DNA from: Lachnospiraceae bacterium | GTDB taxonomy: Bacteria > Bacillota > Clostridia > Lachnospirales > Lachnospiraceae | Direction of reading: 5' to 3' | NCBI GenBank assembly: GCA_016290905.1 | Contig: JAEEVO010000012.1 | Coordinates: 1 to 51,159, forward strand | Length of the DNA stretch: 51,159 nucleotides | Shown here: positions 1,616 through 37,397 of the stretch, piece after piece | Numbering within the stretch: position 1 is the first letter of the stretch | How the letters are laid out: each line of letters starts with the position of its first letter | Program-made: the position numbers and the translations under genes | The notes under the pieces: model-generated | Seen by the model: only the letters and a program-made list of their open reading frames with translations | Told to the model about the DNA's origin: nothing | The model's database searches: none

Positions 1616-4108
1616 TTAACGAATATCCCAGACACTTCTGACTCTTATGTTGTCCGCAGTTCCTTTTAGTATCTTTACACGTTTTTCTCCGCCGTTCAGA
1701 TCAAAGAAATTATCCGATAGGATGAGATCGTCGTTATCGTTTCTTATCTCGATGCTCTTTGCGTAGTACTTTGAGCTGACGATTATCTCATCTCCTTCCA
1801 CCCTGGCCTTAAGCTCGGGATCAACGAACCTGAAATGCTTCGGAGGACAGAAAAGCACTGTTCCTTCCGAAACGTTTTTCCCGGCTTCCTCTAAAGAGTA
1901 GCTTACATAATCCTCGTAAAGGCTTGCATCCTTTAGATCGGTCCTGTCAAACCATACTGCGGAAAGAGCGGGAACCGTTATATCTTTTTTCTCTTCTTTC
2001 TTTATCTCGCCCTTAAAGTTCCTCAGTTGCCACTTAACCGTTACTTCCCTGTCGGTCAGTGATTCGTTTGTAACATTAAGCCTTATGGATTTCTTTACCT
2101 CAAAAGGTTCCTCGTTAACGTTCATGCTTTGGCTTAAGAGACCTTCTTCCTCACATGAGATGAGCAGCGGTGCGAAAAATCTCTTTGCATAATAATGCAG
2201 TGCCTTCCATCTTCCGTAATAATCTATGGATGCCCAGGATGCGACCGGCCAGCAGTCATTGAGCTGCCAGTAAACTGTTCCCATGCAGCGTCCGCGGTTA
2301 CGACGGAAATGCTCAACGCCGTACCTTATTGCTTCCGCCTGCAGGAGCTGTGAAGCATAGATGAGCGTATCGAGGCTGTTGGGATAAAGGAAGGTCTGCT
2401 CCATATAGTTCATGATCTTTCCGTTTGCTGCCGCATTTCTCTGATGCTTTTCCATAACATAAGAGAAAACATTTCTGTCCTCCGGAAGAGTAAAGGTTTC
2501 TACGGTCTTTATCGAAGGGAATGACTGGAAACCGAACTCGGAAAGGTATCTGAAAAAGAACTTCCTGTATTCCGTGAACGGTTTGTTTCCGTGCCATACA
2601 TCCCAGTAATGAACATCTCCCCTGTCGGGGTCGTTCGGATAATCAAATCCTCCGCCCGAAGAAGGACTTGCGGGCCAGTATACCCTGTCGGGATCCTCAG
2701 CCTCCATAAGTCTCGGGAACAGGTACTCATACATCTTGACGTAATCGCTCTTTATCTCGTTCTTTGCTCCCCAGGTGCCCTGTCCGACAAACATTTCCAT
2801 TTCGTTGTTTCCGCACCAGAGACCGAGGCTTGCGTGATGTGACAATCTTCTTATCTGGCACTTCAGCTCCTCCATGATATTGTCCTCAAATTCACGGGTC
2901 AGCCTGTAGTTTGCGCATGCGAACATGAAATCCTGCCATACGACAAGCCCGAGCTCATCGCATATATCAAAGAAATAATCATCCGGATACAATCCGCCGC
3001 CCCAGACACGGATGGAATTGAAATTAGCTGCAACACAGTCGGAAAGAAGCTTCCTTGTCCTTTCCTTATTCGTCCTTGAAAGGATATTGTCCTCGGGAAT
3101 GTAGTCTGCGCCCATGGCAAAATACTTTACGCCGTTTACCGTCTGGGCAAATTCCTCGCCGAACTCATCCTTTTTCCTGCTTACCTCAAGCTTTCTCAAA
3201 CCAATCCTTTTTGAACAGGAATCAACAACTTTGCTGCTTTCCTTTTCTACGAGTCTGATATTTACGGTATAAAGAGGCTGTTTTCCCAGACCGTTGGGCC
3301 ACCAAAGCTCGGGCTTCTCTATCGTGAAAGCCTTGGTCAGGTCAGCATTTTCCGCGATTTTTACGCCTTCGGGGGAGATTACGTCCGCCCTGAGCGCAAA
3401 ACCTTCATTTTTAACGGAATCAAGAGCCCTCTCCTTTGAAAGCACACCGTCCTCCATTGTTTCGATCATCGCTGAAACACTGATCTTAACACGGGAATAA
3501 TCCCCGTTCCACTCCTGGCTGATATACGATTTTGCAAGTCGCGCTCCTTCTACCTTAAACAATCCGACACTCTTCCATATACCTGCGTCGGGAAGCCTGG
3601 GACCCCAGTCCCATCCGAACATATAATGTCCCTTACGGATCTTGGGGAAGCCCCGCATGGCGTCCTCCGTACCAAGTATTGCGGGATCTGCTTCAAACTC
3701 TTTTGCAATGAAATTAACCGGACTGTGGAGATTTACCACGATCTCGTTATCCTTATCTTTTAAGAGGCTGCGTACAGGATACTCCCAGACGCGATGCATG
3801 TTGTTGACAGAACCAAGCTTATTTCCGTTCAGCGATATGTCTGCCAGAGTATCTATACCCGAAAATACAAGCAGTATTTCGTCGGCACCATCAGCCTCCT
3901 TGCTATCAACATCAAAGGTCCCGCGATACTCAAAGTCGTTTTTCATCAGCTCCAAAGCCTTACCTTCATTATCACGAAAATAAGGATCGTCCATCTTCCC
4001 CGCCGCGAGCAGGTCGTTATATACCGATCCGGGCACTTTTGCATCATAATATACGTCTTCTGAAGCTATCTTCATCTTCCAGCTCTGGTTTATATCTATT
4101 CTCTTCAA
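1616..4108 (-). CDS. beta-mannosidase, glycoside hydrolase family 2
   Basis: An 830-residue GH2 exo-enzyme expected to release mannose from the non-reducing end of beta-1,4-manno-oligosaccharides. The order is N-terminal sugar-binding jelly roll (about 1-190), immunoglobulin-like domain, TIM barrel (about 320-640) and C-terminal beta domains. The acid/base Glu is E436 in WCGNNEME and the nucleophile is E524 in SEFGFQSF. There is no signal peptide, so it acts inside the cell on imported oligosaccharides. The start is a TTG at 4108, seven bases after GGAGG; the ATG in that spacer is out of frame. It is the middle gene of a three-gene operon and ends 19 bases before the isomerase start. GH2 members also include galactosidases, but the sequence signature fits the mannosidase group. 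Confidence 0.88.
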   Translation of the reverse strand: MKRIDINQSWKMKIASEDVYYDAKVPGSVYNDLLAAGKMDDPYFRDNEGKALELMKNDFEYRGTFDVDSKEADGADEILLVFSGIDTLADISLNGNKLGSVNNMHRVWEYPVRSLLKDKDNEIVVNLHSPVNFIAKEFEADPAILGTEDAMRGFPKIRKGHYMFGWDWGPRLPDAGIWKSVGLFKVEGARLAKSYISQEWNGDYSRVKISVSAMIETMEDGVLSKERALDSVKNEGFALRADVISPEGVKIAENADLTKAFTIEKPELWWPNGLGKQPLYTVNIRLVEKESSKVVDSCSKRIGLRKLEVSRKKDEFGEEFAQTVNGVKYFAMGADYIPEDNILSRTNKERTRKLLSDCVAANFNSIRVWGGGLYPDDYFFDICDELGLVVWQDFMFACANYRLTREFEDNIMEELKCQIRRLSHHASLGLWCGNNEMEMFVGQGTWGAKNEIKSDYVKMYEYLFPRLMEAEDPDRVYWPASPSSGGGFDYPNDPDRGDVHYWDVWHGNKPFTEYRKFFFRYLSEFGFQSFPSIKTVETFTLPEDRNVFSYVMEKHQRNAAANGKIMNYMEQTFLYPNSLDTLIYASQLLQAEAIRYGVEHFRRNRGRCMGTVYWQLNDCWPVASWASIDYYGRWKALHYYAKRFFAPLLISCEEEGLLSQSMNVNEEPFEVKKSIRLNVTNESLTDREVTVKWQLRNFKGEIKKEEKKDITVPALSAVWFDRTDLKDASLYEDYVSYSLEEAGKNVSEGTVLFCPPKHFRFVDPELKARVEGDEIIVSSKYYAKSIEIRNDNDDLILSDNFFDLNGGEKRVKILKGTADNIRVRSVWDIR

Positions 4109-29764: not shown

Positions 29765-31561
29765 ATGAGGGTAACTAACGAAATTATTTATGTAGGGGTT
29801 AACGATCATAAGATCGATCTGTTCGAAGGTCAGTACGTAGTACCTGAGGGCATGGCTTATAATTCATACGTGATCGTGGATTCAAAAATCGCAGTCATGG
29901 ATACGGTAGACAGGAATTTTACACACGAATGGCTTGATAATCTGGCAAATGCCTTAGGCGACAGGAAACCCGATTATCTTGTGGTCCAGCACATGGAACC
30001 CGATCATTCGGCAAACATCTGCAACTTCATGAATACCTATCCCGAAGCAAAGATCGTTTCTTCTTCAAAGGCATTCGCAATGATGAAGAACTTCTTCGGA
30101 AAGGAATTTGAAGACAGAAGGATTGTTGTTGCTGAAGGGGATACCCTTGAACTCGGTACCCATACCCTATCCTTCATAGGCGCTCCCATGGTTCACTGGC
30201 CCGAGGTCATCATGACCTACGACGCCAAGGATAAGGTCCTGTTTTCTGCCGACGGCTTCGGTAAATTCGGAGCTTTGGATGCAGAAGATGACGACTGGGC
30301 ATGTGAGGCAAGAAGATACTATTTCGGTATCGTCGGAAAATACGGCGTACAGGTACAGGCTGTTTTAAAGAAGGCCGCCGCACTTGATATTGAAAAGATA
30401 TGTCCGCTTCACGGTCCCGTACTTACAGAAAATCTCGGATACTATATCGATCTTTACAATACATGGTCAAGCTACGGCATCGAATCCGACGGCATCATGA
30501 TCGCCTATACCTCCGTTTACGGAAATACAAAGAAGGCTGTCGAACTCCTTGCCGACAGGCTTAAGGCAAAGGGCTGCCCGAAGGTTGTCGTAAACGATCT
30601 CGCGCGTTCCGATATGGCGGAAGTTGTTGAGGATGCCTTCAGATACGGCAGAATCGTCCTTGCAACCACTACCTATAATGCTGATATCTTCCCGTTCATG
30701 AGAGAATTCATAAATCACCTGACCGAACGCGGGTTCAAGAATAAGACAGTCGGTATGATAGAGAACGGCTCGTGGGCTCCCATGGCCGTAAAGGTTATGA
30801 AGGAAATGCTTTCGGGCTGCAAGAACATCACTTATACCGACACAAACGTAAAGATTACCTCTGCCCTTAACGATGTAAGCAAGGAACAGATAGAAAAGCT
30901 TGCCGACGAGCTCTGCATGGACTATATGGCAGCAGCTCCCGATACTGCAAACAAGAACGATCTTACGGCACTTTTCAAGATCGGATACGGTCTTTATGTT
31001 GTTACGTCAAACGACGGAAAGAAGGATAACGGCCTTATCGTAAATACCGTATCACAGGTTACCAGTACCCCCAACAGGGTTGCGGTATGCATCAACAAAC
31101 AGAATTATTCACACCACGTGATAAAACAGACCGGCATCATGAACGTAAACTGCCTGTCAGTGGACGCTCCTTTCTCCGTATTTGAAAACTATGGTTTCAG
31201 GAGCGGCAGGAATACCGATAAATTCGAAGGCGTAGATGTTCTCCGTTCCGATAACGGACTCATCTTCCTTCCGAGATACATCAATGCTTTTATGTCACTT
31301 AAGGTTGAACAGTATGTGGATCTCGACACCCACGGAATGTTCATCTGTTCGGTTACCGAAGCAAGAGTCATGTCCGACAGGGAAACCATGACCTACACCT
31401 ATTATCAGGACAATGTTAAGCCGAAGCCCCAGACCGAAGGCAAGAAGGGCTGGGTATGCAAGATCTGCGGTTATATCTACGAAGGTGAGGATTTACCCGA
31501 AGACTTCATCTGTCCTCTTTGTAAACACGGTGCAGCAGACTTCGAACCGATCAAGAGCTGA
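29765..31561 (+). CDS. flavodiiron protein fused to flavin reductase and rubredoxin domains
   Basis: A 598-residue four-module protein that should reduce O2 to water (or NO to N2O) in the cytoplasm of an anaerobe. The beta-lactamase-like diiron domain (1-250) has ligands H76, E78, D80, H81, H144, D163 and H216, all present. The flavodoxin domain (about 253-395) has FMN loop TSVYGNTKK. A flavin-reductase-like split barrel (about 405-545) and a rubredoxin (about 550-598) with CKICG and CPLC complete it. Having both the electron-entry flavin module and rubredoxin in one chain is less common than the plain FprA core. ACAGGAGG precedes the ATG. Confidence 0.92.
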   Translation: MRVTNEIIYVGVNDHKIDLFEGQYVVPEGMAYNSYVIVDSKIAVMDTVDRNFTHEWLDNLANALGDRKPDYLVVQHMEPDHSANICNFMNTYPEAKIVSSSKAFAMMKNFFGKEFEDRRIVVAEGDTLELGTHTLSFIGAPMVHWPEVIMTYDAKDKVLFSADGFGKFGALDAEDDDWACEARRYYFGIVGKYGVQVQAVLKKAAALDIEKICPLHGPVLTENLGYYIDLYNTWSSYGIESDGIMIAYTSVYGNTKKAVELLADRLKAKGCPKVVVNDLARSDMAEVVEDAFRYGRIVLATTTYNADIFPFMREFINHLTERGFKNKTVGMIENGSWAPMAVKVMKEMLSGCKNITYTDTNVKITSALNDVSKEQIEKLADELCMDYMAAAPDTANKNDLTALFKIGYGLYVVTSNDGKKDNGLIVNTVSQVTSTPNRVAVCINKQNYSHHVIKQTGIMNVNCLSVDAPFSVFENYGFRSGRNTDKFEGVDVLRSDNGLIFLPRYINAFMSLKVEQYVDLDTHGMFICSVTEARVMSDRETMTYTYYQDNVKPKPQTEGKKGWVCKICGYIYEGEDLPEDFICPLCKHGAADFEPIKS

Positions 31562-33660: not shown

Positions 33661-35466
33661 ATGGGAAAGTCTAAAGGATTTGGATTGTATCTTGCGTTTA
33701 TTGTAGTTCTGATACTCATAGTGTATTTTACTAAAAATATCAGCGAGTCTAAATACGACAACTACACGTTCAAGGATTTTTCTGAAGCTTTGAACAATAA
33801 GCAGATACAGGCAGTAACCATTGTCCCATCGGAAGATGTCCCGATGGGCGTGGTAAAATTCTCCCTTTCATCGGGACAGAGGGCTAAGGTCACCTGTTCG
33901 GATGTAAAGGAAATGGAAAAGATCTTAAGAGAAGCAAACATCCCGTATTCCTTAGAGGAAATAGAAAAGCCGGGCTGGTTCTTTACAACTGTTCTACCCT
34001 ATCTGTTGATAGCCGTTGTACTTATCGTCTTTATGATGATAATTACCGGACAGAGCGGATCAAACAGCGGAACAAAGGTAATGAACTTCGGAAAATCACG
34101 GGCAAGGGTTACCATAGGCAAGGACAATACGTTCTCATTCAAGGATGTAGCCGGTCTTAAAGAAGAAAAGGAGGATCTTGAGGAAATAGTCGATTTCCTG
34201 AGGAATCCCGCAAAATATACCGCTGTAGGCGCAAGAATCCCGAAGGGCATACTCCTTGAGGGTTCACCCGGAACAGGAAAGACGCTTCTCGCGAAAGCAG
34301 TTGCGGGCGAAGCAGGCGTTCCGTTCTTCTCCATATCGGGTTCCGATTTTGTCGAGATGTTCGTCGGCGTCGGCGCATCCAGAGTAAGAGAGCTCTTTGC
34401 CGATGCCAAGAAAAACGCTCCCTGCATTATCTTCATTGACGAGATAGACGCAGTTGCCAGACGTCGTGGTACAGGTATGGGCGGCGGCCACGATGAAAGA
34501 GAGCAGACCTTAAACCAGATGCTCGTAGAGATGGACGGTTTTGGTGTCAACGAGGGCATAATCGTTCTTGCCGCCACCAACCGTGTGGATATACTTGATC
34601 CCGCCATCCTCCGTCCCGGACGTTTTGACCGAAAGATAGTCGTAGGACGTCCCGATGTCAAGGGCCGTGAAGATATCCTTAAGGTTCATGTTAAAAACAA
34701 GCCGCTTTCGGATGATGTCGATCTTTCACAGATTGCCCGTACAACAGCGGGCTTTACCGGTGCAGACCTTGAAAACCTGATGAACGAGGCTGCTATCGTT
34801 GCAGCAAAGGAAAACAGGAAGTTCATCAACGAAGAAGATATTAAAAAGTCCTTCATCAAAGTCGGGATCGGTACCGAACGCAAGAGCAAGGTTGTTTCGG
34901 ATAAGGAAAAGAAGATAACAGCTTACCACGAATCCGGTCATGCCATCCTTTTCCATGTACTTCCCGATGTAGGTCCTGTTTATACGGTATCCATAATCCC
35001 TACCGGATTAGGCGCAGCCGGCTACACCATGCCGCTTCCCGACAGGGACGAGATGTTCTATACCAGAAGCCATATGCTTCAGGATATCATGGTATCCTTA
35101 GGTGGAAGAATTGCCGAAGAGCTTATCTTTGAGGATATCACGACCGGTGCATCCCAGGATATTAAGAACGCTACTGCCACCGCAAGAAAAATGGTTACCC
35201 GTTACGGATTTTCCGAGAGCATCGGTATGGTTAACTATGATAATGATGACGACGAGGTCTTCATCGGTAGGGATCTTGCACATACAAGAAGCTACAGCGA
35301 GAATGTTGCAAACCGTATAGACGAAGAAGTTCACTCCATCATCGACAAATGTTACGAAGAAGCTAAGCGTATCATCAACGAGCACATCGAAGTGCTCCAT
35401 AAGAGTGCCGCACTTCTTATAGAGAAGGAACGTATTACCAGAGATGAATTTGAGGCTCTTTTTTAA
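33661..35466 (+). CDS. ftsH: ATP-dependent zinc metalloprotease FtsH
   Basis: A 601-residue membrane AAA+ protease that degrades membrane and regulatory proteins. Two membrane helices (about 8-24 and 108-128) flank a small external domain. Walker A is GSPGTGKT (201-208), Walker B is IIFIDEID, the second region of homology is [20 protein letters not shown] and the zinc site is HESGH (423-427). The second Walker A residue is Ser where Pro (GPPGTGKT) is nearly universal; the catalytic Lys and Thr are kept. AAAAGGTG precedes the ATG. Confidence 0.95.
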
Positions 35467-35526
35467 AAATGTTACATATTTTTGTAAAAATTGCTCAAAA
35501 ATTAGTTAAAGAAAAGTAAATGTTTG

Positions 35527-35556
35527 TGCACACTTTTTTAAAAAAGATGCTATAAT
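35527..35556 (+). promoter_or_regulatory. promoter of the left small RNA
   Basis: TGCACA (35527-35532), an 18-bp spacer and TATAAT (35551-35556). In the other copy both boxes and the spacer length are kept, while three of the 18 spacer bases differ. Confidence 0.65.
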
Positions 35557-35562
35557 ACATAA

Positions 35563-35678
35563 TTGTAAACCCCAATACATTTATAGTTTTTGCTACACCC
35601 CAAACTAAGCGCATTTGGCGCTTATAGCAAAAATACCTTCTCCGAAAAAAGGATGACCCCCCCAGGTTGTCCTTTTTT
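35563..35678 (+). ncRNA. candidate small RNA, left copy
   Basis: A predicted transcript of about 116 nt with no start codon followed by an open frame. TTTTTGCTA (35587-35595) pairs with TAGCAAAAA (35625-35633). Inside, AAGCGC pairs with GCGCTT around loop ATTTG. A terminator stem GGATGACC/GGTTGTCC with flanking A6/T6 ends it (35645-35678). Three C-rich single-stranded patches (AACCCCAA, CACCCCAA and the terminator loop) could pair with Shine-Dalgarno sequences, as C-rich small RNAs of Bacillota do. It belongs to no RNA family I recognise; the start is inferred from the -10 box. Confidence 0.6.
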
Positions 35679-35708
35679 ATTTCGTTCCCCTAAATGCAAG
35701 AAAGTACA

Positions 35709-35737
35709 TTGTTTTTAAAGTAATGTAATGATAAACT
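35709..35737 (+). promoter_or_regulatory. possible promoter of the MATE gene
   Basis: TTGTTT (35709-35714), a 17-bp spacer and TAAACT (35732-35737), between the small RNA terminator and the MATE start. Confidence 0.4.
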
Positions 35738-35792
35738 TAACATTATATTGAAAACGGTTCTGTCCGTAACATATTCGAAAGCGGTGAAGGAA

Positions 35793-37172
35793 ATGTTTAA
35801 AAATCTGTTTAAAGGATACAGCAGGGATAATTTTAAAACAGCTCTGGCTATGGCATGGCCTGCCATAATAGAGTCTTTCTTTGTCGCATTTGCAGGTCTC
35901 GTTGACTCTCTCATGGTCAGCAGGCTCGGTTCTTATGCAGTAGCGGCAGTCGGGCTCACCACTCAGCCCAAATTTATGGGACTGGCAATGTTCTTTGCGA
36001 TAAACGTATCCATCTCCGCTCTTGTCGCCCGCAGGTTCGGCGAAAAGCAGAGGGAGGATGCAAATACGGTATTCCTTACAGCTTTAATATTTGTCGTTTC
36101 CGCCGCCGTCATCTTAAGTCTGATCTTTGTTTTTGCAGCCGATCCGATCATCCGTTTGTGCGGATCTTCCGAGGAAACTGCAGAGGAACTGCAGACTCAC
36201 GAAGCCGCAGTTGCATATTTCAGGATAATCATGGGCGGCATGATCTTTAACTGTGTACAAATGGCTATCAACTCCGCACAGCGCGGCGCGGGGAACACCA
36301 AGATAACCATGCGTACAAACGTTACCTCAAATCTTGTAAACATCATCCTTAATTACTGCCTGATCGAAGGACACTTCTTTTTCCCCGCTCTCGGCATCCA
36401 CGGTGCAGCTCTCGCTACCGTCCTCGGAACGGTTGTATCCTGTATAATGAGCATTCTCTCCATAACGAAAAAGGACACCTTCATAAGCATCCCCTATATC
36501 GTTTCAAATAAAATAAGAGCATCAGTCGCTTCCTTTAAAAGCCTTGTCAGGATAGGCTACGGAATATTCTTCGAACAGATTCTCATGCGTATCGGTTTCA
36601 TGGCAACAGCCGTAATGGCGGCAAAGAAAGGCATGGATGCCATGGCCGCCCATCAGGTCGGGATGAATCTTATGGGACTTACCTTCAGCTTTGGCGACGG
36701 TCTCCAGGCCGCTGCTGTAGCTCTTATCGGAAGATCCTTAGGAGAGGGCAAGCCCGAGCTCGCAAAAAATTACGGAAAAACGTGCAAAGCCCTCGGTATG
36801 ATGATTGCCAGCGTACTCATGCTCGTATACTTCTTCGGAGCACGCGGGCTCATGTCAATGTTTTTCGAAGAGCCTCACATCGTAGATATCGGCGTATCGA
36901 TAATGAGAGTCATTCTCTTTGTTGTACTCTTCCAGATAATCCAGGTTATATATATGGGCTGTCTCAGAGGTGCCGGGGATACTCTCTATACTGCCTTTGC
37001 AGCTACTATGTCGGTAACTGTCATAAGAACGCTTGTCTCATGGCTCGGCGGTTTTGTCTTTGATTTCGGTATAATCGGGATATGGTTCGGAGTCCTTGCG
37101 GATCAGATGTCAAGATTTGCATTTGCCAGCATCAGATACCGCATGGGAAAATGGGTAAAGATAAAAATCTGA
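35793..37172 (+). CDS. MATE-family efflux transporter
   Basis: A 459-residue, twelve-helix cation-coupled multidrug exporter of the NorM/DinF superfamily. AMAWPAIIESFFVAFAGLVDSLMVSRLG at the first helix and the repeated half (GIFFEQILMRIGFMATAVMAAKKGMDAMAAHQVG) are typical. The start is unclear: the ATG at 35793 has a poor GGTGA site, while the TTG at 35748 (474 residues) has none. I prefer 35793 because the protein then begins just before the first helix. The gene sits alone between two inverted small RNA genes that both read towards it. Substrate unknown. Confidence 0.88.
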   Translation: MFKNLFKGYSRDNFKTALAMAWPAIIESFFVAFAGLVDSLMVSRLGSYAVAAVGLTTQPKFMGLAMFFAINVSISALVARRFGEKQREDANTVFLTALIFVVSAAVILSLIFVFAADPIIRLCGSSEETAEELQTHEAAVAYFRIIMGGMIFNCVQMAINSAQRGAGNTKITMRTNVTSNLVNIILNYCLIEGHFFFPALGIHGAALATVLGTVVSCIMSILSITKKDTFISIPYIVSNKIRASVASFKSLVRIGYGIFFEQILMRIGFMATAVMAAKKGMDAMAAHQVGMNLMGLTFSFGDGLQAAAVALIGRSLGEGKPELAKNYGKTCKALGMMIASVLMLVYFFGARGLMSMFFEEPHIVDIGVSIMRVILFVVLFQIIQVIYMGCLRGAGDTLYTAFAATMSVTVIRTLVSWLGGFVFDFGIIGIWFGVLADQMSRFAFASIRYRMGKWVKIKI

Positions 37173-37182
37173 TATAAAATGT

Positions 37183-37216
37183 AAAAAAGGACAACCTGGG
37201 GTGGTTATCCTTTTTT
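37183..37216. terminator. bidirectional terminator shared by MATE gene and right small RNA
   Basis: A6-GGACAACC and GGTTATCC-T6 form a stem with poly-A on one side and poly-T on the other, so it works in either direction. It begins 10 bases after the MATE stop. Confidence 0.8.
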
Positions 37217-37298
37217 CGGAGAAGGTATTTTTGCTATAAGCGCCGATTGCGCTTATTTTGGGGTGTAGCAAAAACTATAAGTGTATTGGGGTTTACAA
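37183..37298 (-). ncRNA. candidate small RNA, right copy
   Basis: This is the same design as the left copy on the opposite strand, with TGCACA-N18-TATAAT at 37305-37334. Changes respect the fold. The inner loop is AATCG instead of ATTTG while its AAGCGC/GCGCTT stem is unchanged. In the terminator stem a G-U pair has become A-U (GGATAACC/GGTTGTCC). The terminator (37183-37216) is symmetrical enough to end the MATE transcript as well. It is transcribed towards the MATE gene, so read-through would make antisense RNA. Confidence 0.6.
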
Positions 37299-37397
37299 TT
37301 ATGTATTATAGCATCATTTTAAAATAAGTGTGCACAAACATTAAAAAAATTATTATTCTTTTTTGCCAAAATTGCACAAAACGGAACAAGAAATGAT

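Follow-up and report, generated by a model that had tools for sequence, protein, structure and literature searches.

The window analysed here is a stretch of 51,159 nucleotides from a Lachnospiraceae bacterium (contig JAEEVO010000012.1). Its ftsH gene (33661..35466, plus strand; TIGR01241 FtsH_fam, 819 bits, cut-off 600), a conserved upstream neighbour, is followed by two inverted copies of a putative small RNA gene, each extending from promoter to terminator. According to sequence reading and a repeat search, copy 1 occupies positions 35519..35679 on the plus strand and copy 2 positions 37182..37342 on the minus strand. Both units are 161 nt long, are 94% complementary, and leave 1502 nt between the arms, where the gene of a MATE exporter (35793..37172, plus strand; Pfam MatE, 9.4e-56; TIGR00797, 238 bits, cut-off 147) is the sole long frame. 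An earlier note on this DNA had described two inverted 161-bp copies of about 94% identity around a MATE gene; the repeat search confirmed this arrangement and gave nine differences over the 161 nt. Three of these are located in the promoter spacer, two in the inner hairpin loop, and one each in the core, the outer loop, the terminator stem and the terminator loop. The difference in the terminator stem is a G-U to A-U exchange, and all sites named previously (spacer, hairpin loop, and this exchange) were seen again.

Either copy contains the promoter element TTTGTGCACACTT, an extended -10 box (TGCTATAAT), a hairpin of two levels and a terminator. The layout of a complete unit, as proposed in the earlier note, was thereby recovered; in contrast, the outer stem has 10 bp with a closing G-U pair and not 9 bp, and the suggested -35 box TGCACA has only four of six letters in common with TTGACA. 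On the plus strand, TTTGTGCACACTT of copy 1 lies at 35523..35535 (upstream consensus, word search) and the extended -10 box at 35548..35556 (upstream consensus, comparison of the copies). The RNA core (35564..35643) scored 63.6 bits (E 1.8e-9) with the covariance model R1 described below, copy 1 itself being one of the 51 rows behind this model. A first C-rich patch (AAACCCCAA, 35570..35573) lies in the 5' tail and is unpaired in the predicted fold. It is followed by the hairpin (35586..35634), whose outer stem joins 35586-35595 to 35625-35634; inside it, the predicted fold places a second C-rich patch (35598-35601) and, together with the alignment, a clade-specific inner stem (35606-35612/35618-35624). 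The third patch, ACCTTCTCC (35635..35643), was assigned by means of alignment A2 as an anti-Shine-Dalgarno linker, and the intrinsic terminator (35645..35678) was located by repeat search and folding. The corresponding elements of copy 2, all on the minus strand, are TTTGTGCACACTT at 37326..37338 (word search), the core at 37218..37297 (model R1, E 3.9e-9) and the terminator at 37183..37216 (sequence reading, repeat search).

Compared with dinucleotide shuffles, the two transcripts have fold z-values of -7.4 and -7.9, and 0 of 200 shuffles were as good. A third copy was not found in the window's own genome, which is 81% complete. Each repeat is very probably a transcribed RNA gene: its product would be an independent RNA of roughly 115 nt, and genes of this family usually lie immediately 3' of ftsH. 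RNA polymerase with sigma-A would start about 7 nt after TATAAT, and the predicted transcript of 95-120 nt would begin near CGUAAACCC.

Distribution of the RNA and its position next to ftsH

In a DNA search, 84 of 145 genomes matched, the window's own included; some of the weakest matches are short and possibly due to chance. The matched loci that were read contain one common core, CGUAAACCCCAAUACAUUAUAUAGUUUUUGCUACACCCCAUAAGUAACAAAAAUACCUUCUCC, followed by a terminator. From 109 distinct cores, 51 were picked by eye for variety (alignment A2) and served to build model R1. A covariance-model search of the Lachnospiraceae, which the earlier note had suggested, revealed a family-wide RNA: 147 of 200 genomes and 146 of 199 genera of the window's own family were matched. 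At the level of the order, 198 of 393 genomes matched; 25 of these are outside the family, among them 17 in one family (f22) and three that are marginal (E 5e-4 to 9.5e-4). At the level of the class, 13 of 293 genomes matched, all 13 within the own family. For these searches genomes were chosen independently of the exact-pattern scan described next, and Infernal's stricter filters were on, so that matches may have been missed.

The exact-pattern scan of named genomes gave at least 120 stretches. Among the 80 matches listed, the titles read Lachnospiraceae, a genus or Candidatus name, or Clostridia, Clostridiales, Eubacteriales or bacterium, and in one case Oscillospiraceae; most of the genus and Candidatus names are presumably Lachnospiraceae. 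Roseburia hominis, Blautia schinkii, Hominisplanchenecus faecis and Enterocloster alcoholdehydrogenati are among the matches listed. We inspected 18 genomes that had given no match, 15 from the family search and three from the order search. An FtsH of 60-66% identity is present in 16 of them, and at the ftsH loci of 15 of these, model R1 detected no trace of the RNA. In the 16th genome (G397), the promoter element and the RNA's 5' part are all that remain downstream of ftsH. Beyond this 5' part, the locus (L332) contains other hairpins and a terminator instead, as in a decayed or remodelled copy. In the other two genomes (G307, G758), no FtsH match exceeded 50%. Judged by the distribution of its matches, the putative RNA is an order-specific family and not a local repeat.

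Among 199 distinct places whose flanks are long enough, 153 have an ftsH gene directly upstream that is on the same strand and ends within 900 nt, a count that favours typical forms because many loci came from the exact-pattern scan with its at least 120 stretches. A previous count had placed ftsH upstream in 159 of 195 units, at a median distance of 151 nt. For this analysis, 12 of 210 nhmmer hits were dropped, which lacked a clear start or end and several of which had a shorter 5' tail; the 198 RNA units included some places present in two loci, and duplicates were removed for the count of 199 places. In Agathobacter rectalis the gene order is tilS-hpt-ftsH-RNA, and no annotated gene lies over the RNA in a table that is devoid of RNA genes. 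The RNA is more conserved than the adjoining ftsH DNA in the places compared: 23 ftsH-linked places have one identical 63-nt core, whereas the last 450 nt of ftsH at the same places have a median identity of 66.2% (minimum 58.6%). As far as these alignments indicate, all of the 63 nt are conserved, beyond the needs of an sRNA that pairs by a seed.

Constraints on promoter, core and terminator

Among 173 distinct upstream regions, TTTGTGCACACTT is matched in at least 12 of 13 letters in 144 and lies 15-16 nt before the -10 box in 155, while the TG of the extended -10 box is present in 134; best-match positions were sought within a range, which raises these scores somewhat. In a set of 41 genomes the exact 13-mer was encountered 30 times, of which 29 are at the RNA gene and one is inside a coding frame; its reversed form, used as a control, occurs once. 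By reading, a good -35 box is lacking. The consensus of the 173 regions also contains an upstream half-site, TGCTCAAAAA in the window (35492..35501, plus strand; family consensus TGCACAAAAA), which is in inverted orientation 31 bp before TTTGTGCA and constitutes a weaker block than TTTGTGCACACTT. Of the 173 upstream regions, 41 contain the exact inverted pair TGCACAAA-N23-TTTGTG and 79 a looser form; the half-site is therefore a tendency and not a rule, and may be regarded as a candidate functional element. We infer that a dedicated activator or repressor may act around TTTGTGCACACTT, which would help or hold back transcription.

The 63-nt consensus core contains 18 C and 4 G. It has three C-rich patches, the third of which is the anti-Shine-Dalgarno one, and the length of the C-runs varies among cores. 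The motif CTTCTC[CT] lies between hairpin and terminator in 51 of 51 rows of alignment A2, where CTTCTC was required for row selection at the cost of two hits, both cut by contig ends. Folds were predicted for 107 of the 109 distinct cores, two having been dropped. The second C-run is unpaired in 106 and the first in 89 of them; the hairpin encloses the C-run in 75, and the linker CCUUCUCC is free in 77. The strongest constraint is on sequence, namely on the C-runs of 5' tail and loop and on the linker.

According to the predicted folds, the outer hairpin is weak across the order. An arm-swap test of the family hairpin (-5.2 against -4.8 kcal/mol) gave little support, and therefore no covariation is claimed for the outer stem, 9 of whose 10 pairs are invariant in alignment A3. 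The inner stem was gained in the window's sub-clade. When it was tested, 96.8% of the cells were paired, compared with 42-56% when it was slid. Two of five measures of the stem test were within shuffles; both-sided pair changes amounted to 2, a value reached by 181 of 500 shuffles, and further pair types to 3, reached by 500 of 500. The terminators were judged by individual folding and not by pair counts, because MAFFT shifts their arms by a column in A3. In a set preselected for stretches ending in a run of at least four T, 146 of 147 distinct terminators fold, and their arms differ from each other. Selection on structure, as suggested in the earlier note, thus has some sign in its favour: besides the terminators, one C-G pair in the inner stem of the sub-clade is replaced by U-A, with both partners changed, in 7 of 16 comparable rows, and a further pair flips in two rows. 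The both-sided change is, however, perhaps one inherited event or a few, in related rows. A different inner hairpin was observed in locus L079 (787-876), where it is inserted into the core at the loop that also carries the insertion of the window's clade, but has another sequence; this is, by reading, perhaps an independent gain.

Mode of action and comparison with known RNAs

With the curated thresholds of Rfam 15, cmscan gave no match at the RNA gene in the window and in eight family loci. A permissive Rfam scan of the region returned sub-threshold matches only; the best of these, to lactis-plasmid RNA (27.2 bits versus a cut-off of 70, E 0.12), overlaps copy 2 on the opposite strand. The comparison with Rfam, proposed along with the claim that no named RNA family has this form, bore the claim out. 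The literature search found no paper on this RNA, a 2017 list of 224 candidate RNAs and a 2011 survey of Clostridium sRNAs being outside its scope, and little on small RNAs of Lachnospiraceae. In the main text of a paper on C. phytofermentans start sites (PMC5171806), ftsH is not mentioned. The RNA family is apparently undescribed and new to Rfam, and belongs to a known general kind, the small RNAs; the general traits of an sRNA, an own promoter and an intrinsic terminator, are present as judged from sequence alone.

In our best reading, the RNA is a new, order-specific, Hfq-independent, C-rich trans-acting sRNA, which would work in an LhrC-like manner and be unrelated to LhrC. We give C-rich base pairing as its mode of action a probability of about two in three. 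It would expose CCCC in the 5' tail and in the loop of the hairpin, and CCUUCUCC in the linker to the terminator; these patches would pair with G-rich Shine-Dalgarno regions of several mRNAs and block their translation without Hfq. Pairing sRNAs of low-GC Firmicutes are typically C-rich, G-poor and weakly structured. The C-rich, G-poor core with its mostly unpaired C-runs fits the sRNAs that cover Shine-Dalgarno sequences in low-GC Gram-positives, and the C-rich patches are suited to ribosome-binding sites, as envisaged in the earlier note. Hfq (PF17209) was detected in 0 of 200 family genomes, the window's own included, while the control search was positive in 5 of 14 genomes (E. coli, B. subtilis, Caulobacter, Thermotoga, Methanocaldococcus); therefore the RNA is taken to be Hfq-independent. 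The family may be without Hfq altogether.

The search for targets gave the following picture. The pattern GGAGAAGGTAT-N-ATG had 28 matches, at least four of them the RNA gene's own antisense, versus 36 for the reversed control; TGGGGTGTA-N-ATG had 53 versus 31; and TTGGGGTTTA-N-ATG had 39, of which 16 were the RNA gene's own antisense, versus 15. In the 30 TGGGGTGTA loci that were read, the ATG belongs to an ORF of at least 60 aa in 10, and no gene is common to two genomes; those sites read that recur between genomes are deep inside long frames. The one other recurring site read for TTGGGGTTTA is also inside a frame. Duplex energies of 548 start regions, whose start codons were picked by a simple rule, were no better than those of shuffled sequences (medians -14.6 and -14.4), and the best row was the RNA's own antisense. 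Altogether, no start region recurred as a target in the three pattern searches and the duplex-energy scan.

The closest working model is LhrC of Listeria monocytogenes, which the model search does not identify as a relative. As described in the accessible part of one report (PMC4132741), LhrC has redundant CU-rich motifs in a loop, a single strand and the terminator, is expressed in dependence on LisRK and envelope stress, and binds Hfq, yet dispenses with it for lapB. As far as this account of LhrC goes, the RNA resembles it in being short and G-poor, in having redundant C-rich motifs in a predicted loop and single strand (and in the window's clade only, also in the terminator loop), in occurring in several copies in some genomes, and in having a conserved upstream promoter element. 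It differs in that no Rfam model matches, in its order, in its mostly single copy, and in its usual neighbour ftsH; in addition, LhrC is described there as an Hfq binder, whereas Hfq was not found in the 200 family genomes searched. The csRNAs of streptococci (CiaRH regulon), in the portion of a second report that was available (PMC3091779), have an unpaired anti-Shine-Dalgarno stretch and several copies. To this extent the RNA is similar, with an anti-Shine-Dalgarno stretch in a region predicted to be unpaired and several copies in some genomes; in contrast to the csRNAs, it has no Rfam match, and the CiaR repeat NTTAAG-N5-TTTAAG occurs in 0 of 173 upstream regions. A csRNA-type layout combining anti-AUG with anti-Shine-Dalgarno pairing was considered and dropped: by reading, there is no CAU where the same pairing needs one. 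The RsaE/RoxS and FsrA type are C-rich sRNAs. The C-rich motif of RsaE and FsrA is aimed at Shine-Dalgarno sequences (PMC4132741, from the accessible discussion). A C-rich motif suited to these sequences is likewise present here, whereas core and order are different and no Rfam match exists.

The main alternative is that the RNA does not regulate by base pairing but serves a dedicated protein as ligand or decoy, or is a housekeeping RNA whose entire length is recognised. The identity of all 63 positions in 23 places, which extends beyond the C-patches next to ftsH DNA that is about 66% identical, argues for it, as does the failure of pattern and energy searches to find a conserved target. However, the C-rich and G-poor composition and the weak structure are taken as typical of pairing sRNAs, and a variable C-run length suits pairing better than a defined protein site, so that we consider this alternative unlikely. 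Somewhat less doubtful, though still speculative, is a broader proposal: a core Lachnospirales RNA, kept near letter for letter over its whole length, that would be read entire by a dedicated partner, be it a protein, the ribosome or many mRNAs at once. If this is true, the RNA would be the central regulatory RNA in a family of dominant gut bacteria that lacks Hfq, with a promoter element nearly exclusive to it in the genome and a tie to the FtsH membrane protease. The human and ruminant gut harbours Lachnospiraceae among its most abundant bacteria. An RNA that is present in 146 of 199 genera, absent from Rfam and found in hosts without detected Hfq offers a single, well-defined entry point, and is open to probing in cultured Agathobacter, Roseburia or Blautia.

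The MATE gene and the duplicated copies

The MATE gene looks like a passenger between the two copies, and its link to them seems incidental. A MATE homologue is present at 22 of 237 RNA-bearing loci, the flanks of many of which are short, and 21 of these 22 are from five genomes of the window's genus; the remaining one is distant (24% identity) and 2.6 kb away from the RNA. Copies of the RNA without MATE, a check recommended in the earlier note, do occur elsewhere. Within the genus, MATE lies between inverted copies in two genomes (G000, G016) and between direct copies in two others (G001, G006), while G007 and G022 have direct copies around a 160-aa gene in place of MATE. G009 contains three copies, with a ribosomal-protein-like and an aminoacyl-tRNA-synthetase-like frame between two of them (names read from the translations). 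Other members have a single copy, or copies around other genes. In the family, 17 of 147 matched genomes have two to five matches to model R1, and most have one. A tree of 17 copies had no well-supported branch. Judged by these arrangements, the window's pair is a local duplication within one sub-clade, and the MATE-flanking duplicate might raise dosage or add a separately evolving copy. One locus with two RNA copies (L037, from a genome with five, G074) contains a Clostridiales-1 RNA between them (3659-3821; RF01699, 115.6 bits). Clostridiales-1 RNA is likewise an orphan gut-clostridial RNA; its model matched only at this site between copies, and not at the RNA studied here.

Could the pair be a cis-regulatory device for MATE, for example with terminators and an antisense RNA tuning its mRNA? 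On the plus strand, the terminator of copy 2 begins 10 nt beyond the stop codon of MATE and might do double duty by ending the MATE mRNA as well; read-through would be antisense to MATE, and the gene lies between the copies in four genomes. The varying orientation of copy 2, the 160-aa gene found instead of MATE in two genomes, and the restriction of close MATE homologues to five genomes of one genus make such a device improbable. Even less credible is an import of MATE by a mobile element whose ends are the 161-nt repeats. A cargo gene enclosed by inverted repeats, and different genes between the copies in relatives, are what such an element would leave. However, no phage record matched the RNA, and the sole plasmid record is the ftsH locus on a 252-kb replicon of Agathobacter rectalis. 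The repeat consists of promoter, RNA and terminator, no long frame other than MATE lies between the copies, and the ftsH position is fixed in most places. The sole viral contig (IMG/VR; L255, 1-208) starts, as judged by eye, in an apparent ftsH 3' end, which the RNA follows directly; a prophage integrated nearby would give this picture. Ends of a transposable element were rejected on the same grounds, namely 153 of 199 places adjoining ftsH, and one plasmid record and one viral contig as the only mobile DNA.

Both ideas of the earlier note, a paired locus devoted to the exporter and a mobile unit carrying it in, are unsupported. The RNA is spread across the family and linked to ftsH; at the 237 loci, MATE homologues other than the distant one come from one genus. 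The exporter-flanking pair should be reinterpreted as members of an order-wide, ftsH-linked, ultraconserved small RNA family. That the conserved stretch acts as DNA, as a regulator or recombination site with an incidental transcript, is suggested by the strongly conserved promoter element that is nearly unique to the RNA gene, but is very improbable given that -10 box and terminator are kept in place, terminator arms change yet still pair, and the inner stem changes on both sides.

Elsewhere in the window, positions 29765-31561 encode a protein of 598 aa. Its N-terminal part resembles flavorubredoxin (NF008887), a further region flavin reductase and the C-terminus rubredoxin, the three domain matches being below their curated cut-offs; by reading, it is a fusion of the anaerobic oxygen or NO defence type.
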